Below are positions 5,204 to 32,368 of a DNA stretch of 64,000 nucleotides, in pieces (the stretch's first letter is position 1; every line of letters starts with the position of its first letter). The position numbers were made by a program, and so were the translations under genes. Under the pieces are notes generated by a model. That model had not been told where the DNA came from. It saw only the letters and a list, made by a program, of their open reading frames with translations, and did no database searches. Origin of the DNA: Siphonodentalium dalli (lineage: Eukaryota; Mollusca; Scaphopoda; Gadilida; Siphonodentaliidae); assembly GCA_032622095.1 (NCBI GenBank), contig CP136068.1, positions 159,545,465-159,609,464 of the forward strand, given 5' to 3'.

Positions 5204-5350
5204 CTGACCCACAACCAAACCTGATAGGACACTACAATCCGCCCACGAAAGGATGGAATGCTGACTGCGGCGTTGTAGATCTCACACAAGCTGGTCTATT
5301 TGACGAATGCTGTAACCGGAACGACTACCACTATGTTCTGTGCGAAATGC
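5204..5350 (+). CDS. C-type lectin-like domain, C-terminal half (exon)
   Basis: A 147-bp exon bounded by a polypyrimidine/AAAAG acceptor and a C|GTGAGT donor, phase 1 at both ends. It encodes 49 residues ending ...GWNADCGVVDL...GLFDECCN...YHYVLCEM. This matches the end of a C-type lectin-like domain: a WN-containing calcium/sugar loop region, a Cys, and the closing (V/I)LCE motif. The WND-type pattern is altered to WNAD, so calcium-dependent sugar binding is uncertain. The first half of the domain (first Cys, WIGL) is not visible upstream and may lie before the window or be absent. Junction phases fit the following linker and EGF exons, so I infer that this is the N-terminal ectodomain module of the channel gene ending at 32368. 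A separate lectin gene sharing the strand remains possible. Confidence 0.75.
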
Positions 5351-9128: not shown

Positions 9129-9197
9129 GAGACGGTGGGATTACGCCTCAGTATGATGATTCGTTTCTCGTGGACAATACATGCTATCCGTACGTTG
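9129..9197 (+). CDS. Linker exon between lectin and EGF modules
   Basis: A 69-bp exon (acceptor TATTTTAAAG, donor G|GTGAGT), phase 1 at both ends. It encodes about 23 residues, GDGGITPQYDDSF...TCYPYV, with a single Cys. It resembles no domain I know. The support is the pair of good splice sites, the open frame, and phases that fit the lectin exon upstream and the EGF exon downstream. It could be alternatively used. Confidence 0.55.
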
Positions 9198-9801: not shown

Positions 9802-9912
9802 GTACGGCGTGCTTGACGAACCCTTGCATGAATGGCGCTAATTGTTTAGTTGACGGAGCCATCGCGGGTTGTGTGTGTGCCGACGGGTTCTCGGGTGAAT
9901 TCTGCGATACGG
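9802..9912 (+). CDS. EGF-like domain exon
   Basis: A 111-bp exon (acceptor TTTTGCAG, donor CGG|GTATGG), phase 1 at both ends, the usual phase for mobile EGF modules. It encodes 37 residues with the pattern ACLTNPCMNGANCLV...GCVCADGFSGEFCDT. The spacing is C-x4-C-x5-C-x8-C-x-C-x8-C with the G-F-S-G motif before the last Cys, so this is one complete EGF-like domain with six cysteines. There is no calcium-binding D-x-(D/N)-E consensus. It follows the lectin and linker exons and precedes the mucin-like exons in the same phase, which places it in an extracellular stalk. Confidence 0.9.
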
Positions 9913-10162
9913 GTATGGGTTGAATTGTATCTCACATTTATAACAACTTCACTCCCAGAGAAATGCAAAATCCGAAGAAAACAAAATGATAATAATAGAA
10001 TATATAACAGTTCAACTTCCAAATGTCACACAATCCTTGGTTATGAATGTAAATGTAATATACTGCAAATGTTTTCACATAATCATGCATGTATTTGAAA
10101 TACTATACTTATACAGACCTAATTTGTACGGTCTGATTACTTCTGACTATAGTTTACATACA

Positions 10163-10298
10163 TGTTGCCATTCATCCGAGAGCTCTCGGGGAGAGCTTTC
10201 TGATGAACGACAACAAGCCATATTTCCGACTAAATCCTGAAAAGTTACCCATAATTCTGCTGTGGTTAAGGAGTGGATTACTTAGAGCATTACTGTAC
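10163..10298. mobile_element. MITE family 1, copy A (5' truncated)
   Basis: Shares AAGCCATATTTCCGACTAAA, GTTACCCATAATTCTGCTG and a terminal ATTACTTAGAGCATTACTGTA with copies at 23050-23216 and 29837-29999. The inner arms CGAGAGCTCTCGGGGAGAGCTTTC form a hairpin. The left terminal repeat is missing. Confidence 0.75.
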
Positions 10299-10604
10299 GT
10301 GAGCCCGCACATAACACATTTCGCGGGGTCGGGGGTATTGATGTTCAAACAGTGATCTCCAGCACGATTCTTAATTAAAAGCCTGTGACATCACATTATT
10401 CTATATCCTGTGATAAGCCAATCAATTATATAATACGATAATATTGACCTCCATGTTAAGTGTGGTATGCCACAAACACTTGACAGCAATAGAAGACATC
10501 ACTTAAACACTTGTTCTATCTCCACCGCTAAAATAATAATTTTACGAAAGTGTGCTAATTGTCATGATGAGCGACCACCAATCACACGTCAAAAGTTATG
10601 ATGC

Positions 10605-11095
10605 GCATCCATTATATATTCTGTAACTTCTGTCTGTATGTATGTGTGTATATATGTGTGTTATAGACTCGAAAACTGCTCGACGATCCGACTCAAATTT
10701 GGTATGTAGCCCTACTTTGATCCGGGGAACAATATGGGCTGGTCCAATTTCACGTGCGACCATGTCCTTACCTCGCTCATAAACGCTCATATAGTCATAT
10801 GTCTAGATCGATCGACCGATCCGACTAAAATTTGGTATGTAGGCATACTTTGATCCCGGGAACAATATGGGCGGGTTCAATGTAACGTGCGACCGTATCT
10901 TTGACCTTGACCTCGCTCATAGAGGCATATTTCTGGACCTCGACCGATCCGACTCAAATTTGGTATGTATATACGCCTATTTTTATCCCGGGAACAATAT
11001 GGGCAGGTCCAATTTCGAGTGCGACCGTGTACTTTACATTGGACTAGCTCACATACGCTCATATAGGCATGTTTCTGAACCGATCAAACTTTATT
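10605..11095. repeat. Degenerate tandem repeat with AAATTTGGTATGT motif
   Basis: Three to four units of about 125-145 bp, each with CGATCCGACTCAAATTTGG, GGGAACAATATGGGC, GTGCGACC and CTCGCTCATA. The first unit follows a TCTGTCTGTATGTATGTG stretch and GACTCGAAAACTG. That layout also occurs in the Helitron-like elements at 62319-63717, so this is probably a remnant of a related element. No 3' hairpin with CTAG was found here. Confidence 0.6.
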
Positions 11096-11539
11096 AGATT
11101 AGATTTATCCTAAAACTCTTCAACGTTGATAGCTCAGTATTAAAAGCCCGGGCGATAACCACAACACACATGTATGACAATTAGATTTCAGACCATTCAG
11201 CAGCACGGTCGTACAGGACAATCACACGTCACGTACATGTACACCGTTACTGCGAAGAGGTTGATATTGTCAGTCACATGCATTGCATTACACATATTAA
11301 GGGTACGACCATGCACGCGTGAGTTTACACATGTTTTTGCAGGCATTTCGATGTTGAAAACGATATGGTGCCAGACATTGAATTGCATCCTTACCAAAAG
11401 CTAACGACATGAGAAGTAGCACTGATGCAGTTTCACATGTGACGATCCTATCTAAACTTCCCTTTAAATGCACGTATTCTTCTCTGAAAATGCGCAATCC
11501 AGCGTCATCGCTGGATCATCCCGCATTTTCCAAGATGCC

Positions 11540-11650
11540 GAGACAATGTCAAGGCAAAGGCAAAGATCAAGGCAAAGATCAAGGCATATACCAAGGCAAA
11601 AGTACAAGGCAAAGACCAAGTGAAGATTCTCAAGACAAGATTCGAGACAC
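11540..11650. repeat. CAAGGCAAAGAT short tandem repeat
   Basis: Irregular copies of a 12-bp unit CAAGGCAAAGAT, within introns of the channel gene. The frames crossing it on both strands (11409-11705 +, 11505-11795 -) are repeat-driven and not supported as genes. Confidence 0.6.
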
Positions 11651-12197
11651 ATACGACGGTGACCAATCCCGGCCTCAAGACTTCTCCACCCGATCCGCGG
11701 CCTGACTGTTGAAGATTAAAGACTCCAGAAGATTCAAGACAATCTTCGGATGAGTCCACCAGCGTCCTCGTGCCGCCCTTCGAGCGGGCACGCAAATCCT
11801 TTCGCTGCTGCTCTTGTCAGATACTTGCATGCTTTGTATAGACAAATGTCGGTATAAGCTCTACGTGTGGAACTACTGATATTTCATTTATCACATAGTT
11901 GCCTGTGGTACAGTGGCATTGTGTGTGCATGTTTCCGTTCATATCATGGCAACATATCGTTTTCTGTGAAATGCTTGCAAACATACCGGTAAAACTTGCA
12001 AGTGGATGAGCGTAGCGTGACATGTCTACAATAAAATCTAAATCATAATCATGAGAACACTACATGTCCTTGTTGTCTTGTTAGTCCATGTTCATCCAGT
12101 TGTCAATATATATCTTTAATAACCTCCAAAATGCCCGTGTTGCTATGATCATATACATATTGGCATAGCATACATTTCATTTCTCTCAAATTCACAG

Positions 12198-12266
12198 CAA
12201 CAGCAAAGTCGACACAGATAACAATGGTAACATATGCGACGTCTGCGATGATAACAACATCGTCAC
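12198..12266 (+). CDS. Mucin-like stalk exon 1 (Thr/Ser-rich)
   Basis: A 69-bp exon (acceptor TTCACAG, donor C|GTGAGT), phase 1 at both ends. It encodes about 23 residues rich in Thr, Ser and Ala, ATAKSTQITMVTYATSAM + ITTSS. This composition is typical of O-glycosylated stalks. It is the best-preserved member of a family of duplicated exons. The intron that follows begins with a block (GTTGTTAACATTAC) shared with the next copies, so exon and intron were duplicated together. It continues the EGF frame: the G left by the EGF exon is completed by CA. Confidence 0.7.
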
Positions 12267-13182
12267 GTGAGTTGTTAACATTACATAACCCTCAGAGAGT
12301 ACGTGCACTTTATTGTGAACTATATGAACTCAATGTCCTTGAATGTGTAATGTGGAAGAACATGTACCGAAATATACAACACGTTCATTATATTAATGTG
12401 TAACTTGAAATATCATTTTCATTTCCTACCATAATAAGTGTACATTATGCCGGGAGGGTTATACACAATAACTTGTTTACAATTGGTCAAATACAAACAT
12501 CGCCACGAAATTAAGTGAATTTAGACAAGTACTATAATCGTCTGTCTCGGAATTACATTTCCATCCAAGATTCAATGCTGTGTTTTGATTGTGATGGTAC
12601 TGTCCACTCTTGTTTCCATTAGAAACAAAACACTAAACTTAGAACGTAGATGTGACTACACCATACAGTTATATCGTTTACCTTAAAGGCACGTGCGGCC
12701 TTAATTGTCGAAAATATTCATATTTGTTCCAAACACCGTAAACAGTAAAACGCATACAGTTCCGTTCATATATACCATGACCATCGCGTAAACAGCATGT
12801 TATCATAAAGACCTACTATATTTTACCTAAGCAAGAGCCTGATTGTGTTACAGAAGACAGCACAATGCTACTGGCTAATCACACAAATGGCATAAACGCT
12901 CTTTATTAGTTCCATATCAGGTATTCACCAACAAAGAACGCTCTTTATGTTTACCATCATAATATAAACAAACACCAGAAAAATAACTGTTTACGCCTTT
13001 TTTTACATAACAATGGTCAAACATATGACCATAACATACTGTTTATGCGATATTTCTTATTTGTATACGGACAAAGTATATCTACATTTTGATGTTCTTT
13101 CTGTTTGTGGCGGTTTTTGACGGGTGGAGATATTTTCACAGGATACCCACCGCTAAGGCCAACCGTGTCTTTAAATTTACAG

Positions 13183-13251
13183 TAACATCGCAGTCGATAC
13201 AGATAACACAGGTAACAATTTCGACTTCCGCGATGACAACACAGCCCTCAT
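13183..13251 (+). CDS. Mucin-like stalk exon 2
   Basis: 69 bp, phase 1 at both ends (acceptor AATTTACAG, donor T|GTAAGT). Encodes VTSQSIQITQVTISTSAM + TTQPS, clearly related to exon 1 at 12198 with the same length. The following intron starts GTAAGTTGTTAACATTAC, as at 12267. Only 3-fold changes separate the two copies, so the reading frame has been kept, which argues for use. Confidence 0.7.
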
Positions 13252-13351
13252 GTAAGTTGTTAACATTACAGCACTCTCAGCTAGTACGTGTACTTTGTGA
13301 ATAATACAAGCTCAGTTTCCTTGCGTGTGTAATTAGTAATAATTTTTTAGT

Positions 13352-13734
13352 TTAACCCTTTACCCAACAGAACGGCCCTGTGCCAATGCATTCTCTTATA
13401 TATGCGAGTCGACCATAGGTCGCCTCGCATATATAAGAGAATGCATTGGCTTAACACATTACAAATTATAAAATTGTTAAAGAATGTAAGAAAAAATGGT
13501 AAAAAAAAGATTTTTTTTAGCCCAATGCATTCTCTTATATATGCGAGGCGACCTATGGTCGACTCGCATATATAAGAGAATGCATTGGCACAGGGCATAA
13601 CTGTAACTATCACAATGTGGTCAAGGAGCCGGTTCCAATGATATCCATATTTGTATGGTTCTATTGAGACAGACCGAAGATATTTTAGGCTGTTGAAGCT
13701 TTATTTGGCCGGTTTTCCTTGCGTGTGTAATTAG
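13352..13734. mobile_element. piggyBac-like MITE, right end lost, flanked by 21-bp direct repeat
   Basis: Begins TTAA + CCCTTTACCCAACAGAA and contains two outward copies of the 75-bp hairpin (13382-13450 and 13520-13590). It then has the shared block GTGGTCAAGGAGCCGGTTCC...TTATTTGGCCGG. The right terminus seen in full copies (ends at 34707, 43811, 53670) is missing. Where it should be, the sequence TTTCCTTGCGTGTGTAATT resumes, the same as immediately left of the insertion (13316 and 13714). It sits in the intron after mucin exon 2. Confidence 0.85.
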
Positions 13735-14381
13735 GAATATAATATGGAGTTAAAGGCACCCATTAATTGGCCATTGAGTTTAGGCGCGACAAAATAATAG
13801 TTCTTGATGGTCATTGCCGCGTAGCATATTTCATCAGTGTGCATCACTGTTATGGTATTATCCATGTGTTTCTTGTAAATACCATTATCCTGTCCAACCT
13901 TATTGTGTGACTTGCCCAGGTCGTTCCACACATTTGTATATAACATGTTTAATATCATTATATACATCAATCGCGACTGAATCAAGTGAACCTCCCAAAT
14001 GACGACCCTTCTGTTTTTCCTTTTTTATCCATTTCATTTGACGTTTATTTTCGGGTTTTGCATTACTCGCTCGTTGTGCCACTAGAACTAGAAACAACAA
14101 TACCATGTAAACACGAGCCTGGCATTTCTCTTAAATTAACAGCAAAAGGCAAGTACGAACTTCGCCGTCGGAAACGCCAGAACAACAACAACGGCCATTT
14201 GAATTTGTTATCAGTTGATATACTGTTTTCAAGAACGACTTATACCATATATTTACCACATGTCACGTGTATGTCCGTATTCCAATTTTCAAACACGGCT
14301 CATTTTGTGATCAAAACACTAACAATTAGAACACACATATGAACATGGCATATATTTAAACCATTTATCTAACATTTACAG

Positions 14382-14450
14382 CAGCAACGGATGCGACAGA
14401 GACACCACAGGCAACAATTGTGACGTCCTCGATGACAACATCATTGCCTT
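14382..14450 (+). CDS. Mucin-like stalk exon 3
   Basis: 69 bp, phase 1 at both ends (acceptor CATTTACAG, donor T|GTGAGT). Encodes AATDATETPQATIVTSSM + TTSLP. It has the same length and layout as exons 1 and 2, ending in ...S(A/S)MTT. High Thr content, no Cys. Confidence 0.65.
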
Positions 14451-15678
14451 GTGAGTGTTAAACATGACCACAGCATCATATACATGTAGTGTGTGTACTT
14501 TACCACCGCCTCAGATACATGTAATAGGTGCAGATTGCCGCGCCATCGGATACGTGTACATGTAATACACTTACATGTAGCACCTTCTTAAAGGTGAAGA
14601 TGGTATCATCTTTCTAAAGACGAGTTATATATAGTTTCTGGTGTATAACATATTCGATATGAGTCGAAGAACTTTATACGGAGACGTTTCTATTGTTTAA
14701 TGTCGAATATATTTATAATATTTTCTAGTGTGATTTAGCTGACGATCGATACTGTTTAATGTTATCTGAGACCAGAAATATTATTGTGTAATTTTGTCAC
14801 AAAATAAAGTGACAATTGGACACATTATCGCTAATAGCTATGGAATGAAAACATACACTCAACATGGGACGTTCGAATTGTAGCAATCGGACAACTTTAA
14901 TAATATATATCGTTATCTAATATCGACTGCACTGTATGGGCTAAACTAGTACCAATATTATTATGTCTCATTGTATCAGCTTACTATATCAGAACATATA
15001 TCCAGAACATCGAGAGATAACCCATCTTTAAGCACTAAAACAACTGCATACGTTATTAGGAGTAAACTGTCTAGTATTACTTAAAGGCACTGCATAATTA
15101 ACCGTTATCCTCGTATTACTTGAGAGGATACAGGAAACAGACGCGTGGGGTTGTGCCACCCCAGCCCTTACAACATTTTCATTTGTATATAGTACTGTCA
15201 CGGTATTATTCATGTATTCTTGTAAATAACATTATACTTTTAAACCCATTAAGTTAATTTACAAGGGAGTTATGCAGACTACCATATTTGTAATTTCCTA
15301 CATACAAACGATATGTATGGAATCAAGTGACACTTGCCAATTATGATCATTGTGGTTCTCCTTATTCTGTGTTCATTCAAGATTCAATTTTGAGATTTCC
15401 ATTATCCGCTCTGTGTGCTACTATAAATCAGTGACAACGGCAAAACATAAATACGCTCATACGATTTTTCTAAAAAGAAAACAGCGATAAGGGCACATTG
15501 GAGTATGCACGGAATATTGGCTTTCCGCTAAGGTTTATTAATTGTCTCATTTGGCTCAATTCTAAAATATTAATCTGGCCTGTGATGACTGAACAAATCA
15601 AAAGCACTAACATTAGAACATGAATTATGGACATAGCACATTTAAATCGTTTATCTTAAATAAATATCAACATTGCAG

Positions 15679-15715
15679 TTGCCACGGACGTCTGCGATGA
15701 TAACACAATCGTCGT
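15679..15715 (+). pseudogene. Mucin-like exon 4, shortened and out of frame
   Basis: Homologous to exons 1-3: it keeps GGACGTCTGCGATGATAACA and the following intron block GTAAGTTGCTAACAGTAC. It has lost about 32 bp from its 5' half and is now 37 bp, not a multiple of three. Including it would shift the frame of everything downstream, so it is either skipped or a dead copy. Confidence 0.6.
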
Positions 15716-16109
15716 GTAAGTTGCTAACAGTACAAAAACCTCAGACAGTACGTGCACATTCTTGATAACTATAGAAAATTACTCCACCACATGCATGCAC
15801 ACTTGGCAATAAACTTAGCAGTTTAGCTTAAAGGCACTCACTAATTCACAATTATTATCGTATTATTTTCCAGACAGGATGTTAGTAGCATAATTTTCGG
15901 GGGGAATTAATTCTACTACAGTGCGTCGGTTTTTGTTACAACGGTTGTTTGAATGCAGAACAAATGATGCTCGAATGTTATGTCCATGAGAAATACTCGA
16001 TTGAAGATCATGTCTGCGTATATAACCATATCTATATCAACGAATATTCCATTGTTTCTCAAACTCATATCAACTCCTTTTGCTAAACTCATTTCTCTCA
16101 TTTGAACAG

Positions 16110-16175
16110 CCACACCACAGTCAACGCAGACAATGCAACTAACAGCGTTGCTGCCGACGCCAGCAGCATCTTTAA
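16110..16175 (+). CDS. Mucin-like stalk exon 5
   Basis: 66 bp, phase 1 at both ends (acceptor TTGAACAG, donor A|GTGCGT). Encodes TPQSTQTMQLTALLPTPAAS + L, a Thr/Pro/Ala-rich segment with the STQT core shared by exons 1 and 8. One codon shorter than exons 1-3, frame preserved. Confidence 0.6.
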
Positions 16176-16857
16176 GTGCGTACATTATATATACACATGT
16201 TCATGCTAGTTATGTACTGAACAGAATAATTGTGGCGAATGATTAGGGAGTCAAACATCAAGCAGTAGCGACTGAACACGCTATTCGGTGTCACAAAATA
16301 GCAGTTTAGCCATTCCATAATATTGGTCTTGGCTATTTTAACTACACGTTCAGATATAGTTTCCAAATATGTCTCGACCACTCGTGGATCCTGCTTCACA
16401 GTGTTCATCATGGTGGACAGAAAACCAGTGCCTGTACAACTTGTTTTATTCTTAACATGCGAGCAATTAATTATATATATGACGATACAAATATCAGTCA
16501 TTATTCTGTATATGATCGTATATGTCAACAGTTCGCCTTTCAGTTACCAGACTCATCTCCCTGGTATTTACCCGTCAGTTTGTCGAGCTGATATATTGTC
16601 GGTGCATCCTGTTTTATGTTAATGGAACCGACATATTCTTTGCCATAATTGGCAAAACAAGTAAACAATACGGGCGATATATGCCACACATATACATAAT
16701 AGTAACTTGAAAAGTGCGTTCCACAAAGTGTTACATAAATACTGTCAATGGATATATGTCTTCAGTTTAATTACTCCTTGATACATATATAATATCAGTA
16801 TCCTCAAATTTGTGTTGACAAACCTCATTGTTTAAATTTCCTTTATTACATTAACAG

Positions 16858-16899
16858 CAGTAGCATGCGGAAGAGAATGTCAGATAAACTTGAACATAC
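16858..16899 (+). CDS. Possible degenerate stalk exon 6 (weak)
   Basis: A 42-bp segment after TTACATTAACAG, an acceptor region homologous to those at 17881 and 18505. It ends C|GTGAAA, phase 1 at both ends. It encodes AVACGRECQINLNI, which has lost the Thr-rich character and gained two Cys. It is probably a decayed duplicate of the stalk exon. The upstream intron (TTCTTCAGTTTAATTACTCC) is clearly shared with exons 7 and 8. Confidence 0.25.
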
Positions 16900-17880
16900 G
16901 TGAAATGTATAAAATTTTAGCAGTAGTACATTCTGGCTTATATCGATTTAGAGTCACAAATGGTACACTAAATTGGTTGTATGATCCTCTACTATATCTT
17001 ACTGGATTTATACCTATTCTAGCTACTTAAAATGGTGACATGATATTTAAAAAAACAGCACACGACATCTGTTGGGATAACGATATCACCTTCGCTGTGA
17101 CCATGGTCTTGTTGCTAATTTTAAGAGGAGGCGTTAGCTCCGGTCGGGTCACCGTTTGATTGATACACGGTCTTGCACCTTCGTTCCGAAAACGATAATT
17201 GTGGCGACCGCCTAGGGAGTCACACATAAAGCGGCAGCAACTGATGACGTTATCAATTGTCATTTGGACCTTTTATAAAATATAAGTAACACTGTTATCT
17301 GTTCAAAATTATTGGTCTTGACTATTTTATCTTTACTATGGTATATAAGTCCAAATATATTTTCCAAATGCGGTAAGCCGCTCGTTGACCATACCTCACA
17401 ACTGTTATCACGATGAAAGCGGAAGCCAGTGTATGTACCTGAACAAACCGTAAAAATATTCCCACTACTTTACTGTTATACAGATATATTCAACTCCCGT
17501 TGCGATATACAAACACCTATTTTATTATCATAGCATGTGAACAATTATTGATATGACGACATAACAACCAGCCAATTTACTATGCTGCAATTATTTCCTG
17601 ACTTACCTCATCTTGTTGGTGTTTATCTCTCATACCGTCGAGCTGGTGTGGTGTCGGTGCATCCAGTTGTAAGAGTTATTTGATCCGACATCCACTTTTC
17701 CATTATTGGCATAAAACACAAACAATATGGGCGATATCTTGCGTTCCACATTATTGTCCTAAACAATGTCATCGGATATCTTTCTTCAGGTTAGATGCTC
17801 ATTGATACGTATATAATACCAGTATCTTCAACTTGATGTTGACGAAACATCGTTGTTTTAATTTGTCTTTATTACATTAG

Positions 17881-22200: not shown

Positions 22201-25200
22201 ATTTTTGTTCAACCAAATTTTGAATATTTTTCATGAAATAGCTTTATACCAATTATATGTGTATGGACAGGTCCGAGTCGCTGTAATTTTGGACATTGTG
22301 ACCATCGGTATGAATGCATACATTCCAGTGTTTATCAATCAGACACAACCCATACATCATATAATTGTCATACCTGAAATAATTTGACACCATTACTCTT
22401 ACATGAATAATAAAGAGCGTTTATTCTTTACTTCTCTATCACGATGAAGTTATTGAGTATATGACAGGTGTGTATTATCGCGAATTATTGGAAGTATTGA
22501 GATGTACTATGTTGAATCATGAGCGGACGAAGAGGGTGATGCGAAATTACAACCCCAGAATGAACTGACATATTCGATGGAACAAATTTTCAAGTATGTA
22601 CACACACACATAATCACCAAAAAATTTCAAAAACTTCCAAAACTTCCAAAATTTCAAAAACTTCAAATATTTCAAAAATTTCAAAAACTTCAAAAATTTC
22701 AAAAATTTCAAAAACTTTCAAAACTTTCAAAAAATTCAAAAAATTAAAAAATTTCCAAAACTTCCAAAACTTCAAAAATTTCAATATAATGGTGGACAAT
22801 ACACTCACGATGTGACAACATATATAGACATAGGCATAGTGTTATATAGTCTTCTATGTACCAACGCTATGACATAATTAAAGGGGGATAATACACGCAC
22901 GGTGTGGAATGTTAAAGTGACACGAGGTAAGGGACGTTATGTAATATTGGTGTGTGAATATTAAAGGAGCACAATGCGCTCTAAAGGGACACACGGCACT
23001 CATTTTGAATGATTGTTAAAGAAACACAATACACACGCAGTGGGTGAAAGTTTCTCGCTTTTCAGGATTTAGTCGGAAATATGGCTTGTTGCCATTCATC
23101 GGAAAGCTCTCAGTGAGAGCTTTCCGATGCAAGCCATATTTCCGACTAAATCCTGAAAAGTTACCTATAATTCTGCTGTGGTTAAGCAGTCCATTTTTAG
23201 GGCATTACTGTATGTAGGCCTACCAGTGGATGAATAGTCTGCCGGAGAAGCACTGTGTAGACGGGGAATCAACAGGTCTTGTCGGTAAGAGAGTCAGACG
23301 AGAAGTGAAGTCTCGGCTATTGAAACATAGTAATGCGATAGCGAACATCAAACGAGTCTGCGCACGCATATCTGTCAAAGGATACAATAGCAGTCATTGG
23401 TCAATTTATCCACGGTGTCAGCTCAGTATATAGGTGCATAGAAGAACGCTCGATTTCACTGATTATATAGGAAAATGAAGTATCAATGTGAAGAGTGCTC
23501 AAGTGTCTATGCTTGGCAAGATAGTTTGAAACGTCATATCAAAGTTAAACACAAGCCTTCAGAACAACAACAACAACAGTATCATCAGCCACAACAACAA
23601 CAACACTCATTTGCTCATTTTTTTTGCCCATTTGCTCATTTTTTTTGCTCATTTGCTCATTTTTCTCACCCCCTTTGAATATACTTTGTGTGATATTCTG
23701 TGTCATTGTTAATTGATTGGTGCATACTCAATCAAGATCTCAACGAAACGCATTATTGAAATCGATAACTATCATGGTGCATTTGGCATTCATGGCCAGA
23801 CAAATTTAATTCATGGATTTTAGAGTCTGATGTCGCCAGATATCAAAATTAATAAGAGTAAGTTGTACACGAGAACAATCATGGATAATAGAACAAGTAC
23901 CTTGGCGAATACGTTTCAAACAGAACGTGGTCGTCTACAGGTGAATCTCCTTAAATGGATAGGAATTACTATTATGGTAATCAGTGTGTCACTACCATTT
24001 ATTTTAGTTCCAAAGAAGATACCGCGTGAGTCGGTTGACTATGAATTACTTCATACTAATATGTCACACCCCAATGATTACGAACAACACCCGTGTGTTT
24101 TCGTGAAAAAGTGGACAATACGATCAAACATTACTGTTACATTATGTAATAATCAAGGACACATTTATACAGACATTAGGCGAGTTGTGAATAACACTCC
24201 GACGATTATAGGTATTCCGTTAAATTTGAACCAGTGGTCAATCTTCAAGCATATATTCAGTGATATCAATAAAACTATAAGAGAAGAAGAATAATGATTC
24301 TCTTTGAATTGTTTTATTTTAGAAACTATAGTCATATGGATAATTATTATCTGTACCTGACTAGCGACGATTCGATTAATAAATATCCAGATAATCGATT
24401 TTTATAAGAGGCGATAAATTTTCTAAAATAAAATGCAGAAAAAAGAGTGACTTGTACACTACATTTGAAGAAACATGTCGATCCCGTATATTCCAGCAGA
24501 TATTAAAACGTGGAAAAACATTTCAGAGACATGCTTGATGGGAAGTTAATACCAGATAATAAGGGTCGATACTTTATTGACATAACTAAAAATAGTGATA
24601 GTGAAGAAGACGTTCTAAAACCACATATTAACGTAGTGACGCCCATCGCTCAAGCGATTGAAATGGCTAAGGCCGAAGTTGCAGCAAATAAGTTGACAAA
24701 CACACGTAAAGCGTCCAAACAAACCAACAAGAGAGTGTTAGTTGGAGGTTTGTCTAATAATAAGAAGAAAATGAAAAGAAAAGTGTCATACGATTAGCCA
24801 AATCATGAATGAATACATAGAGTACCATACTGATAAATTAGCATTAATTGAATCACCGGCGGTCAAATATCTATACCCTAGCCCCGGGACGAACGTACTC
24901 TTAACGCGACGGTTGTATACCACACCTTATTCTCTCTTTTTATCGATACTTATAAGAGTGATCGTTCTTCCAATAATTCGCGATAATGCACGGGTGTCAT
25001 TTATGCGGAATTATTTTATCGACCAACTACAATCTACAAAGACATAAACAGATTAAACACGGAGTTATGTCCGAGACAAAAACAACTCTCTTCAGAGAAG
25101 ATACCGATGACCTAGAATCTGACGAAGCAGTTCTAGATTCAGATGAAGATGAACGGGGAACGATATCAGATTCAGAAGATGATAATGTCGTCGGTAGTAG

Positions 25201-28200
25201 AACGGTATTCGGTCTTAAGAAATCTGCGCGATGTGTCAACGAGATGGACACATTCAAAAGTATGATGAAACGCGTCACCAGTGATGCGAAAGGAGAAGAG
25301 AGCATGTCGGGAGATGAGAGCATGTCGGGAAAAGAGGCTACCATCGACACAGAGTTTGCTCTGTTTCTCAAAAGTTATAGACGATTAATAGAATACCAGT
25401 ATCGATTGAAAACATCACCCATACATAACATGATCATGAAGAAAATGGTCAAACTGACCAAACACGGATATAATAATGAATGGGCTGCAGATGAAGCGAT
25501 GAGAAAATTCAAGAAACTCTTAGAAATAAATCTAACGGTCGAAGATTCAGACAATGATTAAATTTCAATAAACTTCATCAACATGTTATTCTCGTCTTCG
25601 TTATATATCTATAAGTGGGGAGGGGAGATTGTAGAGCGAGAAACGATACATAAATGGTACATTACGAGCCCTAAAATTTGAAGTTTAAATATTGTTCTGT
25701 GTCTTTTTAATTTTCACCCACTGCGTGTGTATTGTGTTTCTTTAACAATCATTCAAAATGAGTGCCGTGTGTCCCTTTAGAGCGCATTGTGCTCCTTTAA
25801 TATTCACACACCAATATTACATAACGTCCCTTACCTCGTGTCACTTTAACATTCCACACCGTGCGTGTATTATCCCCCTTTAATTATGTCATAGCGTTGG
25901 TACATAGAAGACTGTATAACACTATGCCTATGTCTATATATGTTGTCACATCGTGAGTGTATTGTCCACCATTATATTGAAATTTTTGAAATTTTGGAAG
26001 TTTTTGAATTTTTTGAAATTTTTGAATTTTTTGAATTTTTTGAAAGTTTTGAAAGTTTTGGAAATTTTTGAAATTTTTGAAGTTTTTGAAATTTTTGAAA
26101 TATTTGAAGTTTTTGAAATTTTGGAAGTTTTGGAAGTTTTTGAAATTTTTTGGTGATTATGTGTGTGTGTACATACTTGAAAATTTGTTCCATCGAATAT
26201 GTCAGTTAATTCTGGGGTTGTAATTTCGCATCACCCTCTTCGTCCGCTCATGATTCAACATAGTACATCTCAATACTTCCAATAATTCGCGATAATACTC
26301 ACCTGTCATATACTCAATAACTTCATCGTGATAGAGAAGTAAAGAATAAACGCTCTTTATTATTCATGTAAGAGTAATGGTGACGAATTATTTCAGGTAT
26401 GACAATTATATGATGTATGGGTTGTGTCTGATTGATAAACACTGGAATGTATGCATTCATACCGATGGTCACAATGTCCAAAATTACAGCAACTCGGACC
26501 TGTCCATACACATATAATTGGTATAAAGCTATTTCATGAACAATATTTAAAATTTGGTTGAACAAAAATACCGAAAGATATTACACTCAAATAATTTAAA
26601 AAATTTTAATACCGAGATTATCCGAAACCGAAAACTCATTATAAATTTTTTAGATTAAAACTTTTTTTTTTGAAAATTTTGAAAAAAATATTTTGGGTTT
26701 TGAATTTTTTTTTTGGGAATATTTTATTACAACCAATTTTAGACCCAACAAATCTATTTTTAGATGTGGATGTAACAAGCCCCCCATACTACTGATGTGA
26801 CGTAACTCTATTTAACTGCTAACCAATTTGTATATATGGATTATGTGGCGTCGCTTATATGTCAGATTTATAGGTATTAGACTGTCACTAAGATGCGGTT
26901 TAATTAATAACTATGATATTATTTGGTTGGTTTGATGTTAAACCCCTGTCACACTCAGACCGGCGCTTGCAGGAGGAGCGCCGAAAACTGTCCCAAATTG
27001 TCAAACTTTTAAAACAAACTATGCTCATATTGAGTAACACGGAGGAGGAGCGCCGAAAACTGTCCCAAATTGTCAAACTTTTAAAACAAACTATGCTCCT
27101 ATTGCGTTCCTACTTTGTCAAGTCTCACGCTCTTATTGCGTTCAAGTCGCTGTCATTGTGATGCTAGTACGTTCTCAATACGTTTGCAAAACGCTCTCTG
27201 CGCGGGCGCGGAGAGTATAAATAGCGTCTCCTGCGTTCTCCAGTCATAGTCAGTTTTTAGTTTGTGGGGAATATACCCAACAATCCGCAATAGATTAGCT
27301 GTCCGATTAAATCACTATCAAACTCCGCTGCGATCAGACCGGGGCTTGAATTGCGCTGTAAAATTATCATAGCGCCGAGCAAAGCGCACTAAGGTATCTA
27401 AGAACCGATTGGTGACGCAGTAACGTCGCAGTTGACACTGGCTAGGACGGGATAGGGTCCCCGTGATCGCCTCTGAGCGCCAGAGTGCCGCGTTTGTTTT
27501 GTGCATGCACAAAACAAGCGCAGATGTTCGGCGTTCTGACCAGGCGCAGTACCGTCGCCACGACAGCTCAACGCGAACGACATGAGCGCCCCGTTGACGT
27601 AGCAAGGACTGATACAAGCTACTCGTGGTCATAGCAAGAATTCATCTGCAACTGCAGTAAGCTTACTACGCCTTGGGCAGAACGCAGAGCCTCTGCGCTT
27701 GTTTTGTGCATACACAAAACAAGCGCGGCGCTCTGGTGCATGTGGGCGACCATGGATACCCTCGCCTGTCGTAGCCAGTGTCCACTGCGTCACCAATCGG
27801 TTCTTGGATACCTTAGTGCGTTTAGGTGTGCGCTTTGATACTTTTGCAGCGCAATGCAAGCGCCGACCTTAGTGTGACAGGGGTTTTACAGGCCTAATCT
27901 CAGCGCTCGTAACATCATCTCTGTCCTTCGGTATAAAACCAACCAAGCAATAGCCTCTATGTACTGCTGACACTTGCCCCATCCATATGTTGTATCTACT
28001 CCAGGAGTGGGAGGACGCACGGCTAAAGTGGGATGCAAATAACTCGGTAGATGTCATCTATGATTCGCAGGGTCAGACATGGACACCGCCAATCATCCAT
28101 AGCAACAGGTTAGAGTTATATCAACCAATGGTTCGTTAAGTTTGGGCTTTCACGCCACGACAGTGTTAGAATACCAAGATACCATCATTTATAAGGACTA

Positions 28201-31200
28201 ACCCCATTAATGGTCGCGTGCGATCAGATACAGTGATGCTTATGTTTGTGGTCATGTCATATATGTTTTTCGATACATTTAGCTGATTGTAACATGTGTA
28301 CTTTATTAAAGATGTTCGTGTACAATTGCAAATTCAAATTCAAATTCATCACAAATTACGAACGATACGAATGATAGCAATATATTTATTTCAGTTCTCC
28401 CGAAAATCAGCACGTTCTGAACGTTTAATATATGTTTTAGGTTCCTAATCGGCTCAGAATTGCCTCATTCGGCGTCCATAACGAACTGATAATGAGATTG
28501 TTTCCGCGCCATAGTCGACTCATAATGATTTTGTATAAGTTCATTATGGGCCAAAATAACACGACTAAACCAACTCACGACTTGCCAGATGTAGGCTCTT
28601 TCAAATGTGTTTCACTGTGGCCCGCAAAACAGACAGGAATAACGGATATAAGTCCAATATGGGTTTATTTAAGAATAAAATAAACCTATGTGTATATTAT
28701 AAGTCGCTCGAGGATTTGTTGTATATTTATTGTATTCTCATCAACTGTTTACGCCACTATATAGACCATATCCTCACGCACATATAACAGAATGTGTTAC
28801 TCCACTCTCAAGATGTTAATCTAATTTCAGCACGACGTCATGACATCATAAGTATGTTTGGGTCATTCTGCTTGTGTTTGTTGTTTTTTGTCATCCCTGT
28901 GTCATATTGATTTAACTAAGTATGAACTAGGGTAGTGATACAGTGGTATAGATAGGAAAATAAGGGTTCTAAATTTGAACAAAATCTCCTTTTGGTAGGG
29001 GTATATCAAGTGTAGTGAGGCGTAGAACTATATCGTTGAGTTTTTCGTATATACATATTATTGGCTTATTTCATGGTTACTTATATCATTCGCAATGAAT
29101 TAAAATTGACGAAAATTCCAAAATATATCGATTGTACCATTTCAGAAAACACTGTGGCTGAATTACGCACACACTATTTATTACATTTTCGGGAGAGATA
29201 GAGGGAGGGAGGGATATAGAGAGATGATTTATTGACAAAGAGCAATTCCAACAATATATGCACACATAATAGTGAAGATAATGAGGTTCATACATATTAA
29301 AAGAGAAAAAAACTAAATTTATGCTAACCCATTTGGGATAACGATCCACCAGACGGGCTGAGTGCTCCTTGTCTGGGGAGGGCATAGCCATGAATTGGCT
29401 CTCTTGCTGCCCACCCCAACTAGTCATTAAAATAATACTCTGCTCTGTGTGGAAGCTGCGTGGCCGTTGGCACATTGTATAGAATAACTGTGGTCAATTA
29501 TAGGATATACAATTTGGTGTATTGGATCATTTGGAAACTAATTGGGAATCAAGGGAACATACGGATGAGCAACCACGCGAGTTTAACTGATATATGTATA
29601 TGTAATGATTGATTGGTCATATCACGCAATACTCTTTATGTATTAGTTTTATTTACACTCATTAATTAGAAGAGCCAGGGTCAGAGAATAAGGTGAATAA
29701 CTCGCGAGGTTCGATTGGATGAGATCCAGTCAGAACGTCACACTTTACCTGAAGCAATGTATGACGGGAAATGTCTTTGGCGTAGTTGAATACTATATGC
29801 CACGAGAGCCATATATATTTATATAATATATACATATACATTAATACCCTAAGTAATCGACACTTTATCTACGGCAGAATTATGGGTAAGGGGAGAGCTT
29901 TCCGATGAATGGCAAAAAGCCATATTTCCGACTAAATCCTGAAAAGTTACCCATAATTCTGCTGTAGTTAAATAGTCGATTACTTAGGGCATTACTGTAT
30001 ATGATAGGGACGCATTGTTGGGCAAAACATGACGACAACGTTTCAATGGGAGACTCGCATATATGAGAGAATGCACTGATATTGAATGATGCACCATCGC
30101 AGCTCACACCATGAAACCCACTTGAAAGAGTTAATTCTTACGTTCCAGTCATGGATCGATGACATTGCTTCGATCACCCGATGTTCCAATACAGATCAGC
30201 TCGACCGGAAAACTTAACTGGAGATTCCTGGGTAATATCATGACGTCATGTGAAATGACCGCCGATAATTTTCCATTTGACGAACACCAGTGTAAAATCA
30301 AATTCGAAGTTGTCGGGTATACAGCTGAGTTCGTCCGGATCGCTGTTCCCAACGGGTTGGTGACTGCCAACTTAAGGTACGCAAGTAGTCTGTATATATA
30401 CCCATTCTAGATAACGTGTGGAATTTCTCACACAAACAATCACCTATCGCGCGGCTTAATCTCGAAAGTGTCGTAGATTGAGGCGCGATATGCAGTCACG
30501 GTTAGATTGGCTGTCAGCGTGAGGTGGACCGTAATGACAGCTGTTCCATCATATGTGTTTTTGTTTTATTATTGTATTATTTATTATTTTATATAGTTTT
30601 GTATTCCGCATTAGTGTTATACAGTGCAGGAAAAGGCGTTCAAAATAAATTGAACAGAAATACAATAAGTATATGTCCCTGCCGCTGATGAATGCGGCAC
30701 ATTGGAACAATGCATGCTATAGTCTTACAATGTTTACCAACTCCTCTTGTTATGATAATGGATAACATGCCAAATCATTTGTAAATGTGCTTGATACAGT
30801 ACCAGTGTTTGTACTGTCGTATAATAATGTATCGTGTTTTTCTTAAGCAAAAACAAGGACTGGGTTCTTGCAACAGGCGACACAGACACCAGTAGTCTGC
30901 CTGAAACGGTATCCTACGCAGTCCTGCCATTCACAGTAACCAGACAGCCAATGTCCTTCCTCGTCGCCAATGTTATACCTGCCATTGTCGCAGCGCACAT
31001 GGGGCCGTTGGTATTCTACCTACCGCCAAGCTCTGGAGAACGCATGGGGTACATCGTCACGGTGTTCCTCGCTTTCGTGTTCATGAACACTTCTGTGAAT
31101 ACAATGCTACCAGCTCAGTCGGGAACACTATCATCACTGGGTATGTGCATTTGATTAATCAAAATTATCATAAATCACTATTGTACGCGAAGGTCTATAC

Positions 31201-32368
31201 ACTCAACAATTACCCAACGGCGGTGTAATTGTATATGTAGCTACGCTTACTGAATTGTATAATTGGTTCTACTCAACGTGTTGGGTAAACTTTCTGCAAC
31301 ACTTTGAAGTGAAGTCTGCCCACAACATATAGCAACCGGGGAGCGGCGGTCCATCTAACTTTCAAGAATTTGTCATCAAATCCCCTATTCTCTATATATT
31401 AATATACTATTCAATATGTTGATATATGTTAAAACAATACATTACATATAAGGGATTTGGGGACAAGTTATGTAAAACTTACATACATGGAGTTCCGATA
31501 TTAAAGATGATACCTAGACGCAATCATGAATATAACAAGTTATGTATTGATTTATTTTCGATTTCTAGCAGGTGTTGGTAGAATGGGTAGAGCATATATA
31601 TAACGTACGTGAATATAACGGATATAGCATGAGGAGTGTTAGCGATAGTCTATTTTAAATCCATGATTGTGTGTGGGGGACTGAAGAGTAGTTATATACA
31701 TATATATATATATGGAAATTATAACAACTGACAGCACACATGTAAATGGTGAGAAAGGTATAGTTGGTGGTTTTGGGAAATAGTAAATAGGAAGGGGTCG
31801 CAATGTTTGCGCCGGCCTAATGCGACGGAATTACCGATGCTCCACATGTTACTCGCTTGTTCGTTAAACATCAGTGTAAAGGTAAATAGATGTATTCTGA
31901 ACTATTCTTCCGTGTTTCCCTTGTTCTTAAGACACAGTTGCGGAAATGCAACGCAATTACACATCGCATCTACAACGTGCCTTTCATTGTATTACAGCCT
32001 TATACCTTCAACTACTGGGTTTGAATGGCGTGCTATGCATTCTGTTCTCAATGTGGAACATGGTAGTCAGTAACCGTGGTGACAAACCCGTTCCAAGTGT
32101 AACGCAACTCATCATCCGGCTGATCAAAACACCTTCACAGCAAACAAGTGAGAGAAAAGTACAACCGATCCCTGATATCGATATAATCATCAAACCGGAC
32201 CAATACACCAATAATATGATCATCAAACCGGACCAATACGATACACACGTCGGAAACGTATCATGGAAACAGGTGGCGGAGCTATATGACGTGATATGTT
32301 TAGTAATATTATCTGTGTACAACATTTGCCTCACGCTTGTGTTTGCTGGGAAAATGAACTTAATCTGA
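19042..32368 (+). CDS. Cys-loop ligand-gated ion channel, six exons (composite)
   Basis: Exons 19042-19202, 21065-21109, 28005-28108, 30149-30376, 30848-31140 and 31998-32368 join in consistent phases (0, 0, 2, 2, 1). They encode about 400 residues of a nicotinic-type pentameric channel subunit. The ligand-binding domain has a 13-residue Cys-loop with FPFD. M1-M3 follow the nicotinic pattern, the M3-M4 loop is short (about 75 residues) and M4 ends close to the C-terminus. M2 carries Glu at -1' (SGERMG...), predicting a cation channel. The binding site is not that of an acetylcholine receptor: against the alpha7 pattern, W55 is Phe, Y93 is Ser, W149 is Val, and loop C lacks paired Cys. There is no signal peptide at the start. 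The phase-1 entry continues from the mucin-like, EGF and lectin exons, so the product is inferred to be a chimeric adhesion-type channel. Confidence 0.88.
19365..19680. repeat. Dispersed repeat family 3, copy 1
   Basis: Contains TGTTCTCCCGAAAACCCGCA near the left end, ACAAATAAGCCAACTCACGA, and repeated GCAGATTATGTGCGG words. Related copies lie at 28385-28665 (same strand) and 48510-48765 (opposite strand). Probably a non-autonomous element. Its termini are not resolved. Confidence 0.65.
19797..20232. repeat. Array of short palindromes (CTAAAGAGCGGTATACC dyads)
   Basis: About ten copies of the dyad AGAGCGGTATACCGCTCT, each flanked by CTAA/TTAG, spaced 20-60 bp and partly degraded. Because the unit is itself a palindrome, the array can form a row of cruciforms or hairpins. 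It lies in the intron between channel exons 1 and 2. Confidence 0.85.
21065..21109 (+). CDS. Channel exon 2: loop D strand
   Basis: 45 bp in phase 0 at both ends (acceptor TTTACAG, donor CTG|GTGAGT). Encodes DIEQQVVKFQAFIGL. This is the beta2 strand of the ligand-binding domain. The residue at the nicotinic W55 position, counted back from the conserved Trp starting the next exon, is Phe. A 45-bp microexon for this segment is typical of nicotinic receptor genes. Confidence 0.85.
21972..21977. repeat. Left target-site duplication of the Polinton-like element
   Basis: GATATG immediately outside the left terminal inverted repeat. The matching position at the right end (26794-26799) is GATGTG, identical at 5 of 6 bases. 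A 6-bp duplication is what Polinton integrases generate. Confidence 0.7.
21978..23049 (+). repeat. Left terminal inverted repeat
   Basis: Matches the complement of 25712-26793 with scattered substitutions and small length differences in A/T runs. It contains an AT-rich tip, a block around GGACAGGTCCGAGTCGCTGT, a low-complexity TTTCAAAAACTTC tract (22618-22780) and a series of CACTTTAAC/TTAAAG(G/T) words toward the inner edge. The match ends at GTGGGTGAAA. Frames inside it (22205-22387, 22614-22808) are mirrored at the right end and look non-functional. Confidence 0.88.
23050..23216. mobile_element. MITE family 1, copy B (inside the Polinton-like element)
   Basis: A long hairpin with arms TTTTCAGGATTTAGTCGGAA and its complement around CGGAAAGCTCTCAGTGAGAG. 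The right half continues to TTAGGGCATTACTGTA. The left outer third is missing, and the copy starts exactly where the left inverted repeat ends. Because the right inverted repeat has no copy, this MITE is not part of the element's ends and probably inserted later. Confidence 0.8.
23475..23678 (+). CDS. Single C2H2 zinc-finger protein, 67 aa
   Basis: Residues 5-25 form a classical finger YQCEECSSVYAW...LKRHIKVKH with spacing C-x2-C-x12-H-x4-H. A Gln-rich tract follows (about residues 34-48), then the frame runs into a TTTGCTCATTTTTT minisatellite that gives FAHFFCPFAHFFCSFAHF and a stop. The C-terminus is therefore probably not original, and this may be a truncated version of a longer protein. 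It lies just inside the left end of the Polinton-like element. A second finger of identical spacing is encoded at 24986. Likely role: DNA binding for the element. The exact family is unknown to me. Confidence 0.6.
   Translation: MKYQCEECSSVYAWQDSLKRHIKVKHKPSEQQQQQYHQPQQQQHSFAHFFCPFAHFFCSFAHFSHPL
23612..23668. repeat. TTTGCTCATTTTTT minisatellite
   Basis: Four copies of a 14-15-bp unit TTTGCTCATTTTTT(T)GC at the 3' end of the zinc-finger frame. Probably a slippage expansion that altered the protein's C-terminus. Confidence 0.7.
23830..24294 (+). CDS. Membrane-anchored protein with PC4-like C-terminal domain
   Basis: 154 residues, the longest plausible protein start in the element (an internal Met at residue 18 is an alternative). 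Residues 42-60 are hydrophobic (WIGITIMVISVSLPFILV), a single predicted membrane segment. Residues 96-150 read WTIRSNITVTL...IYTDIRRVV...IGIPLNLNQWSIFKHIFSDI + NKTI. This follows the PC4/Sub1 ssDNA-binding core: beta-strands, a D-I-R motif, a G-I-x-L-x-x-x-Q-W turn, then an amphipathic helix ending D-I. I recognised this by motif only. A membrane anchor joined to a PC4 fold is unusual. Codons are intact with no stop. Possible roles are genome or virion-membrane association. If the PC4 reading is wrong, it is an unknown single-pass membrane protein. Confidence 0.5.
   Translation: MSPDIKINKSKLYTRTIMDNRTSTLANTFQTERGRLQVNLLKWIGITIMVISVSLPFILVPKKIPRESVDYELLHTNMSHPNDYEQHPCVFVKKWTIRSNITVTLCNNQGHIYTDIRRVVNNTPTIIGIPLNLNQWSIFKHIFSDINKTIREEE
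24475..24797 (+). pseudogene. Frame-disrupted Lys-rich protein of the element
   Basis: An ATG at 24475 opens a frame that stops after about 24 codons. A second frame, one step over, runs from 24510 to 24797 without its own ATG and encodes 95 residues with acidic (NSDSEED) then basic (NNKKKMKRKVSYD) segments. The frames overlap at an A-run, which suggests a 1-base indel in one ancestral gene. The basic C-terminus could be a nuclear-localisation or DNA-binding tail. Family not recognised. Confidence 0.4.
24966..24987 (+). promoter_or_regulatory. Copy of a 21-bp terminal-repeat motif before the second zinc-finger gene
   Basis: CTTCCAATAATTCGCGATAA + T ends at the ATG of the zinc-finger frame at 24986. 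The same 21 bases occur in both terminal inverted repeats (26275-26296 in this orientation, complement near 22473-22495). A shared site within the two ends and one gene start suggests a promoter element or protein-binding site of the element. The function is inferred only from recurrence. Confidence 0.35.
24986..25561 (+). CDS. C2H2 zinc-finger protein with acidic region, 191 aa
   Basis: Residues 4-24 form one finger HGCHLCGIILST...LQRHKQIKH with C-x2-C-x12-H-x4-H, the same spacing as the frame at 23475. It is followed by a long acidic Asp/Glu/Ser segment (about residues 38-70, 98-118) and a C-terminal region with helices (FLKSYRRLIEYQYRLKTS, MRKFKKLLEIN). Layout: N-terminal DNA binding plus acidic tail, as in regulators or in DNA-binding proteins of large DNA elements. 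It overlaps an 80-residue frame (24805-25047) in another phase, which may be the displaced 5' part of the same gene. The frame is uninterrupted, so it could be functional. Confidence 0.55.
   Translation: MHGCHLCGIILSTNYNLQRHKQIKHGVMSETKTTLFREDTDDLESDEAVLDSDEDERGTISDSEDDNVVGSRTVFGLKKSARCVNEMDTFKSMMKRVTSDAKGEESMSGDESMSGKEATIDTEFALFLKSYRRLIEYQYRLKTSPIHNMIMKKMVKLTKHGYNNEWAADEAMRKFKKLLEINLTVEDSDND
25712..26793 (-). repeat. Right terminal inverted repeat
   Basis: Complement of 21978-23049. It begins TTTCACCCACTGCGTGTG at its inner edge and ends CAAGCCCCCCATACTACT. It includes the low-complexity GAAATTTTTGAAG tract (25978-26150), the source of a spurious Phe/Glu-rich open frame. Differences from the left copy are few, so either the insertion is young or the ends have been homogenised. 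Confidence 0.88.
26794..26799. repeat. Right target-site duplication of the Polinton-like element
   Basis: GATGTG directly after the right inverted repeat, differing from GATATG at the left end by one A/G transition. Confidence 0.7.
26972..27105. repeat. 69-bp direct duplication inside the TTA element
   Basis: Two consecutive copies of a segment starting GGAGGAGCGCCGAAAACTG and ending AACAAACTATGCTC. They produce a short open frame (26913-27161) that I do not consider a gene. Confidence 0.8.
27216..27256 (+). promoter_or_regulatory. Core promoter: TATA box plus initiator
   Basis: TATAAATAG at 27216-27224 in a GC-rich context (GCGCGGAGAG upstream) is followed 34 bp later by TCAGTT (27250-27255), an initiator-like start. 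The spacing is normal for RNA polymerase II core promoters. No obvious gene follows, so the element may carry a promoter captured from a host gene or drive a non-coding transcript. Confidence 0.45.
28005..28108 (+). CDS. Channel exon 3: WxD and loop A region
   Basis: 104 bp, enters in phase 0 (acceptor CTACTCCAG) and leaves in phase 2 (AACAG|GTTAGA). Encodes EWEDARLKWDANNSVDVIYD and TWTPPIIHSN. The W-x-D-x-R-L-x-W signature is conserved in nicotinic-type subunits. In loop A, the usual W-x-P-D-x-x-x-Y-N is changed: P for D, and Ser where Tyr93 contacts acetylcholine. Confidence 0.88.
28385..28665. repeat. Dispersed repeat family 3, copy 2
   Basis: Shares TCTCCCGAAAATCAGCAC, ACTAAACCAACTCACGACTT and GTAGGCTCTTTCAAA with 19365-19680. 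Diverged. Lies in the intron after channel exon 3. Confidence 0.6.
29837..29999. mobile_element. MITE family 1, copy C (complete, 163 bp)
   Basis: Both terminal repeats are present: TACATTAATACCCTAAGTAA at the left, and at the right the complement of TACAGTAATGCCCTAAGTAA. The inner halves also pair (GCAGAATTATGGGTAA with TTACCCATAATTCTGC). This copy defines the family ends for the truncated copies at 10163 and 23050. No coding capacity. Located in the intron before channel exon 4. Confidence 0.85.
30053..30080. repeat. Fragment of the 75-bp hairpin module
   Basis: ACTCGCATATATGAGAGAAT + GCACTG matches one arm of the hairpin carried by the TTAA elements. The other arm is absent. Confidence 0.6.
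30149..30376 (+). CDS. Channel exon 4: Cys-loop and loop B
   Basis: 228 bp, phase 2 at both ends (acceptor CGTTCCAG, donor TTAAG|GTACGC). Encodes the central ligand-binding domain including CEMTADNFPFDEHQC. These are the two Cys-loop cysteines exactly 13 residues apart with the diagnostic F-P-F-D. It continues KIKFEVVGYTAEFVRIAV. Seven residues after the second Cys, where acetylcholine receptors have Trp149 of loop B, there is Val. Confidence 0.93.
30848..31140 (+). CDS. Channel exon 5: end of binding domain, M1, M2
   Basis: 293 bp, enters in phase 2 after TTTTTCTTAAG and leaves in phase 1 (CTGG|GTATGT). The acceptor CTTAAG rather than the ACAAG ten bases later is chosen because only it keeps the frame. 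The loop C stretch (DWVLATGDTDTSSLPE) has no vicinal Cys. M1 is SFLVANVIPAIV...LVFYLP. M2 begins SGERMGYIVTVFLAFVFMNT: Glu at -1', Thr at 6', Leu at 9' and Thr at 20' where alpha7 has Glu. Confidence 0.92.
31998..32368 (+). CDS. Channel exon 6: M3, cytoplasmic loop, M4, stop
   Basis: 371 bp from acceptor GTATTACAG (phase 1) to a TGA at 32366-32368. M3 is LYLQLLGLNGVLCILFSMWN. The cytoplasmic loop (about 75 residues) contains a direct internal duplication IIKPDQY...IIKPDQY made by a 30-bp tandem repeat near 32190-32247. M4 is LYDVICLVILSVYNICLTLV and ends six or seven residues before the C-terminus (AGKMNLI). The loop is short compared with vertebrate nicotinic subunits. Confidence 0.92.

Follow-up and report, generated by a model that had tools for sequence, protein, structure and literature searches.

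A predicted Cys-loop channel subunit with a lectin, EGF and stalk arm in the scaphopod Siphonodentalium dalli

We describe a gene of Siphonodentalium dalli that, judged from gene structure alone, very probably encodes a single subunit composed of a signal peptide, a C-type lectin domain, a linker, an EGF module, a Thr/Ser stalk and a complete, divergent Cys-loop channel of the nicotinic type. The stretch of 64,000 nucleotides analysed here (the window) belongs to contig C8 of a 2.23-Gb genome with nine large contigs. The conceptual gene reaches about 52 kb and about 762 residues because two lectin exons and a candidate signal exon sit upstream of the window. Two sister genes on other chromosomes, the copies on contigs C7 and C3, have the same arrangement, and therefore we consider that it would represent a real receptor design and not chance neighbours. 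Considered as a whole, the best explanation (a one-gene subunit, shuffling of the arm and a mechanism based on contact) is in our view probable.

Exon organization and predicted modules

The exons are listed below in window positions, with negative numbers upstream of the window. All of the intact exons listed within the window have AG/GT borders, and the stop is at 32368.

-19625 to -19559, plus strand: signal-peptide exon candidate, encoding MLYLVTNMHVILLLAVMITTNT and ending in phase 1
-14424 to -14264, plus strand: upstream lectin exon outside the window; completes Lectin_C with the other upstream exon
-11307 to -11193, plus strand: upstream lectin exon outside the window; its joint to the preceding lectin exon is in phase 0
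5204 to 5350, plus strand: lectin exon; 56% identity to an exon in the contig C3 copy
9129 to 9197, plus strand: linker exon, phase 1-1; 62% identity in the contig C3 copy, match to the C7 copy with E 7.1e-4
9802 to 9912, plus strand: EGF-like exon, phase 1-1; identity 64% to the C7 copy and 67% to the contig C3 copy
12198 to 12266, plus strand: stalk exon S1, Thr/Ser-rich; counterpart with splice sites in the C7 copy
13183 to 13251, plus strand: stalk exon S2, Thr/Ser-rich
14382 to 14450, plus strand: stalk exon S3, Thr/Ser-rich
15679 to 15715, plus strand: broken stalk exon copy of 37 nt; would shift the frame if used and is taken as skipped or dead
16110 to 16175, plus strand: stalk exon S5, Thr/Ser-rich
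17881 to 17952, plus strand: stalk exon S7, Thr/Ser-rich; counterpart present in the C7 copy
18505 to 18576, plus strand: stalk exon S8, Thr/Ser-rich; counterpart with splice sites in the C7 copy
19042 to 19202, plus strand: channel exon C1, where the ligand-binding domain begins; phase-1 entry; fused to a 662-residue stalk in the contig C3 copy
21065 to 21109, plus strand: channel exon C2
28005 to 28108, plus strand: channel exon C3
30149 to 30376, plus strand: channel exon C4, with the Cys-loop CEMTADNFPFDEHQC
30848 to 31140, plus strand: channel exon C5, end of the ligand-binding domain and M1-M2
31998 to 32368, plus strand: channel exon C6, M3, a short intracellular loop, M4 and the stop

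A preliminary description of this DNA had proposed an ordered series from half a lectin domain, through a linker, an EGF exon and at least five stalk exons, to the channel. The exons do exist, in that order and in frame, and six intact stalk exons are present; the lectin, however, is not a half-domain, since two more of its exons lie upstream. The statement that every joint before the channel is in phase 1 holds for all joints within the window, and channel exon C1 at 19042 is likewise entered in that phase.

The signal candidate has the best hydrophobic core of those scanned (3.61, compared with at most 2.87 for other plus-strand candidates and at most 2.93 for minus-strand controls), although it had been missed by a stricter scan and the thresholds were loosened after the candidate had already been seen in the DNA. 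Its donor score of 2.0 is modest but inside the span of the gene's other donors (-0.2 to 6.1), and its phase-1 end fits the first lectin exon. No signal exon was found in the 10.9 kb scanned at the contig C3 copy, the first lectin exon of which lies farther upstream.

With the three lectin exons joined, Lectin_C is matched at 26.0 bits (Pfam cut-off 22.6); the window lectin exon alone gives no Lectin_C match in Pfam, nor do two of the three lectin exons of the contig C3 copy when joined. The nearest solved domain to the window lectin is that of CD209-like B (E 1.7e-5 in the PDB). We take the Ca2+/sugar motifs of C-type lectins to be EPN or QPD plus WND. The window exon carries QPN and LFD instead, and the contig C3 copy QPN and ILD, so that sugar binding by the window lectin is putative. 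The window EGF falls below the cut-off of 21.5 for Pfam PF00008, scoring 15.1 in a 648-residue chain and 17.7 with the upstream exons added; the EGFs of the paralogs exceed it (22.2 for the C7 copy, 27.4 for the contig C3 copy and 36.5 for a second EGF of the latter).

The interval from EGF to C1 holds five Ser/Thr-rich stretches on the plus strand and none on the minus strand. An alternative Asp/Asn-rich frame for the stalk was rejected because S7 contains a stop in that frame and the phases of the EGF exon and C1 need the Thr-rich one. We infer the splice from EGF to stalk from the order, strand and phase of the exons and from the lack of another end; the fused exon of the contig C3 copy is no proof of that joint. 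An excess at third positions is not consistent among the window stalk exons, which may keep composition and not sequence, or may escape selection. The stalk is probably O-glycosylated.

Pfam assigns the window channel to the Cys-loop subunits. Neur_chan_LBD scores 96.1 bits with the channel alone (cut-off 26), and Neur_chan_memb 29.1 with the channel alone (cut-off 28.1) but 23.7, under the cut-off, in the 648-residue chain. The NCBIfam model TIGR00860 LIC is matched at 112.2 bits (E 2.4e-32), under its curated cut-off of 280.2. The two cysteines of the Cys-loop are 13 residues apart, and M3 and M4 are placed by alignment only. The best solved match is octopus CRT1 (E 2.9e-28), with nicotinic alpha subunits close behind (E 6.5e-25, about 11 bits less) and CRB1 at E 3.2e-15 (PDB).

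We assume that the acetylcholine site consists of the aromatic box of loops A, B and D together with the loop C YxCC of alpha subunits. Aligned with a hemichordate receptor and two from fish, the window channel has V for the loop B W, S for the loop A Y and F for the loop D W, and YxCC is absent. The glutamate adjoining the start of M2, presumably a cation-selectivity feature, is kept. We infer a cation channel with five stalked lectin arms.

Several repeats lie around these exons. The intron between C2 and C3 contains an element of about 4.8 kb (21975-26796) with inverted arms of about 1.1 kb, the main arm pairs being 95% complementary; within it are minisatellite-like repeats and a number of open frames, of which one weakly matches a zinc finger. 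By eye, the C1-C2 intron (19790-20230) shows repeats around the motif CTAAAGAGCGGTATACCG. A MITE-like palindromic repeat of about 67 bases occurs at 13376-13595, 32752-32841 and 1190-1273, with similar peptides near 34400 and 39500, and recurs in introns of the channel copies on contigs C7, C3 and C8; between the contig C3 copy and a copy on contig C8 (copy C, below) it is 96% identical over 375 bases. A tandem repeat at 62446-63214 is open on both strands.

Channel copies and the probable joining of arm to channel

The genome holds at least ten copies of the channel including that of the window, by our own grouping of the best 104 of 666 candidates scored; exon C5 of the nine others is 70-86% identical to that of the window. 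A full lectin-linker-EGF arm lies upstream and on the same strand at three channel loci, namely the window, C7:152.83-152.97 Mb and C3:58.56-58.63 Mb. The latter two are the closest copies to the window, and both have the EGF exon and channel exons C1-C3. The C7 copy has stalk exons of the window type. Reading upstream at the contig C3 copy revealed two lectin exons, the linker and the second EGF, and the arm search supplied the lectin and linker exons still missing from the two loci, with order and strand unchanged. The exon borders inspected in these paralogs have the same phases as in the window.

The contig C3 copy provides the closest link between the two parts. A single exon (C3:58602961-58605086), entered in phase 1 and free of stops over 708 residues, carries 662 stalk residues that lead straight into the ligand-binding domain; the window gene has its stalk and C1 on separate exons. 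The contig C3 stalk repeats a Thr-rich unit of some 18 residues, with 39% Ser plus Thr, 24 N-x-S/T sites and no cysteine. The second EGF of this copy would need a GC splice donor and is 92% identical to one EGF of a lectin family on contig C2.

In the genome-wide arm search the best 150 of 223 candidates were scored and 135 matches listed. Arm-exon matches with E<1e-5 numbered 63 among those best 150, comprising five at the window locus, four at the C7 locus, four at C3:58.6 Mb, 44 on contig C2 and six at C3:70.6 Mb. The 135 listed matches include none at the seven other channel copies, which have no recognisable arm. For copy C (C8:159.10-159.12 Mb) none was recognised in the 40 kb read, 27 kb of which is upstream of C1, and a piece of stalk repeat is retained at the start of its C1; copy D and five copies near C8:133 Mb are called arm-free from the arm search alone. 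Near exon C3 of copy C (C8:159.12 Mb, reverse complement), an exon end with its splice donor occurs in five tandem copies spaced by 55 bp; these donors are possibly alternative or dead.

The same loci might instead hold two neighbouring genes, a membrane-bound or secreted lectin-EGF protein next to a conventional channel that has a signal exon of its own, duplicated as a block. Seven of the ten channel copies lack a recognisable arm, and genes with the arm only occur. The C7 copy has a gap of 73 kb separating its linker from its EGF; the reading covered the 28 kb adjoining the EGF, and therefore another gene could sit in the gap. Our confidence in the gene structure was lowered slightly on this account. 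The preliminary description had the parts separated by neither a signal peptide nor a poly(A) signal, of which the latter statement does not hold and the former needs qualifying. Weak stretches resembling a signal peptide occur twice in the interval from EGF to channel, at 11237 and at 16479 (MTIQISVIILYMIVYV, donor score 0.3), and positions 9913-19041 contain seven AATAAA and four ATTAAA. The window's own rate predicts 10.3 and 8.1, respectively; the counts are therefore uninformative either way on the separation of the parts.

Other observations count against neighbouring genes, which we regard as an improbable explanation. Stalk and channel are fused in one exon of the contig C3 copy, the splice phases are compatible, and the order is the same on three chromosomes even though the introns of the window and the contig C3 copy barely align outside repeats. 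We looked between EGF and C1 for a separate lectin gene that would end in a membrane tail, and found none. Open segments resembling transmembrane helices number two on the plus strand between EGF and C1 against six on the minus-strand control, so no terminal exon stands out in that interval. Finally, the membrane tail of the likely donor lectin, described below, was not found at any of the three channel loci.

Likely source and history of the arm

The arm of the one-gene subunit has a likely donor in a family of type I membrane lectins. At C3:70.66 Mb (C3:70660000-70663400) an intronless frame of 786 residues encodes a signal-like start (by eye), two lectin stretches, the linker, an EGF and a long Thr-rich stalk, followed by one membrane helix and a short tail (by eye). 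The EGF scores 21.3 bits, just short of the cut-off of 21.5. The frame is perhaps a retrocopy; two copies lie nearby, each with a stop inside the match. A large lectin-linker-EGF family, with at least 44 matches of E<1e-5, occupies C2:209.85-210.62 Mb and 214-218.8 Mb, and in the single stretch of it that was read, more EGF exons come after the EGF. Among the matches listed, neither C2:209.8-218.8 Mb nor C3:70.6 Mb has a channel or ligand-binding-domain match.

The membrane tail of the 786-residue lectin gave 14 matches with E<=1, three at C3:70.6 Mb, two on contig C2 and nine elsewhere, and none of the 14 at the three channel loci. The two on contig C2 lie below EGF matches of the arm family (tail E 9e-7 by EGF E 0.10, and tail E 0.48 by EGF E 9e-10).

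Between the window and the contig C3 copy, dN/dS was 0.23/1.26 for the arm (138 codons from two lectin exons, the linker and the EGF) and 0.148/0.61 for the channel (95 codons, exons C1-C3). Against the C7 copy the values were 0.29/1.69 for the EGF (36 codons) and 0.085/0.38 for the channel (152 codons). Synonymous sites were saturated in the comparison of lectin exon 3. Ratios of about 0.2 suggest that the arm and channel exons compared are under purifying selection. Synonymous divergence from the contig C3 copy is larger in the arm than in the channel, which may reflect separate histories or gene conversion.

These values also bear on the idea that the main product is a short channel, with the arm confined to some isoforms or the window copy in decay. 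Such a product would accord with the frame-breaking stalk copy at 15679-15715, with remnants of further stalk copies near 14143 and 16858, with the inconsistent third-position bias of the stalk and with the large inverted-repeat element in the C2-C3 intron. The arm and channel exons used are nevertheless intact with splice sites, and the exons compared appear to be under purifying selection between copies; we rate this alternative as improbable.

DNA matches between the window and the contig C3 copy are limited to lectin exon 2, the linker, exons C1-C3, dispersed repeats and one unexplained match of 102 bases, so that a recent block duplication can be dismissed. Around C1-C3 and around the stalk exons, the window and the C7 copy also have intron sequence in common. 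In a DNA tree of exon C5 (291 bases, ten copies) the window groups with the C7 copy (98/93) and the contig C3 copy with copies C and D (99/96), and these five are split from the five C8:133-Mb copies (100/100). The tree has a midpoint root only, and a protein tree with outgroups resolves few of the forks. Provided that this root is correct, the arm would be older than the split of the window, C7 and contig C3 copies, copies C and D would have lost it or it escaped detection there, and the C8:133-Mb copies may be the arm-free ancestral type.

The preliminary description had attributed the gene to exon shuffling onto a Cys-loop channel. This proposal is strengthened by the conserved order, strand and inspected phases at three loci, by the single exon that holds stalk and channel in the contig C3 copy, by the selection on the exons compared in both parts and by a likely arm source, no match to its membrane tail having been found at those three loci. 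In our model, phase-1 shuffling brought the arm of a type I membrane lectin into the intron that preceded the ligand-binding domain in an ancestral channel, and the channel would thereby have replaced the lectin's own membrane tail.

Possible mechanism and relation to known receptors

The assembled receptor would be a pentamer crowned by five stalked arms. We suggest that the arms bind glycans or the matrix of a touched surface, a microbe or a neighbouring cell, and hold the channel there, and that gating of the cation pore would be shifted by a contact-delivered ligand or by arm-bound Ca2+ or glycan. Given the loss of the aromatic box, the proposed ligand would be something other than acetylcholine. 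The preliminary description had suggested a contact or surface sensor, a role that is plausible; we put this contact-sensor mechanism forward tentatively, at somewhat less than an even chance. The more specific idea of a glycan-contact-gated family, in which an arm on a mucin stalk is joined to an acetylcholine-blind nicotinic channel and contact with a microbe, food or mate surface would open the pore directly, we consider unlikely.

Alternatively, the arm is real but just anchors or localizes the channel at matrix, mucus or a cell contact, with no role in gating. Coupling between binding and the pore would be poor across a long flexible stalk, and the same arm occurs on a plain type I membrane lectin. 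Against this there is, indirectly, the report that the N-terminal domain of the bacterial channel DeCLIC affects gating kinetics (in part of PMC9897478). Anchoring alone is a substantial possibility, though short of probable.

DeCLIC-type bacterial channels resemble the proposed subunit in being pentameric with extra N-terminal modules before the ligand-binding domain (part of PMC9897478). The likeness is one of layout alone. DeCLIC has two jelly-roll lobes and is bacterial (part of PMC9897478), whereas the window gene is from an animal and has a lectin, an EGF and a Thr/Ser stalk; its modules match Lectin_C and EGF, and it does not have the two beta-rich lobes. The type I lectins at C3:70.66 Mb and in the contig C2 cluster share the lectin-linker-EGF arm, and that at C3:70.66 Mb also the long Thr-rich stalk, but the latter ends in one membrane helix (by eye) and a short tail where the window gene ends in a channel.

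Among animal receptors, the octopus and squid proteins CRT1 and CRB1 belong to the same nicotinic superfamily of pentameric channels, the likeness being that of the best sequence match in the PDB. The matched CRT1 chain has 410 residues, with the match at 25-304, and leaves no room for such an arm. Cephalopod chemotactile receptors are described as contact-dependent sensors for hydrophobic molecules, without acetylcholine binding (in part of PMC11526382). The nicotinic receptors of molluscs, massively expanded and many of them intronless (part of PMC6896357), are of the same domain family, and the 150 ligand-binding-domain matches scored in this genome (of 822 candidates), most in long open frames, resemble that pattern. 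The window channel differs from them in its several exons, in the loss of the aromatic box and YxCC and in the added N-terminal arm. The terms lectin and EGF are absent from the main text of PMC6896357.

Searches of proteins with the joined chain returned 39, one and one matches with E<=0.001, all of them distant nicotinic channels (of fish, a hemichordate and fish, respectively) with no listed lectin or EGF. With 7990, 7996 and 1286 candidates scored, these results say little for a true absence, so that relatives could well be present but unnoticed in the annotated genomes of other species. Among the papers listed, none describes an animal channel with such an arm in its title or at the start of its abstract; names or accessions of the channel and lectin families co-occur in the listed papers PMC4529745, PMC4992803 and PMC10484617.

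Such N-terminal domains are said to be absent from eukaryotic pentameric channels in the abstract of PMC9897478, and an animal family at three loci with conserved exons would be a counter-example. Since a likely donor family, arm-free channels and the chimera occur in one genome, the shuffling would be directly open to study. The family may represent a route from lectin recognition to electrical signalling.
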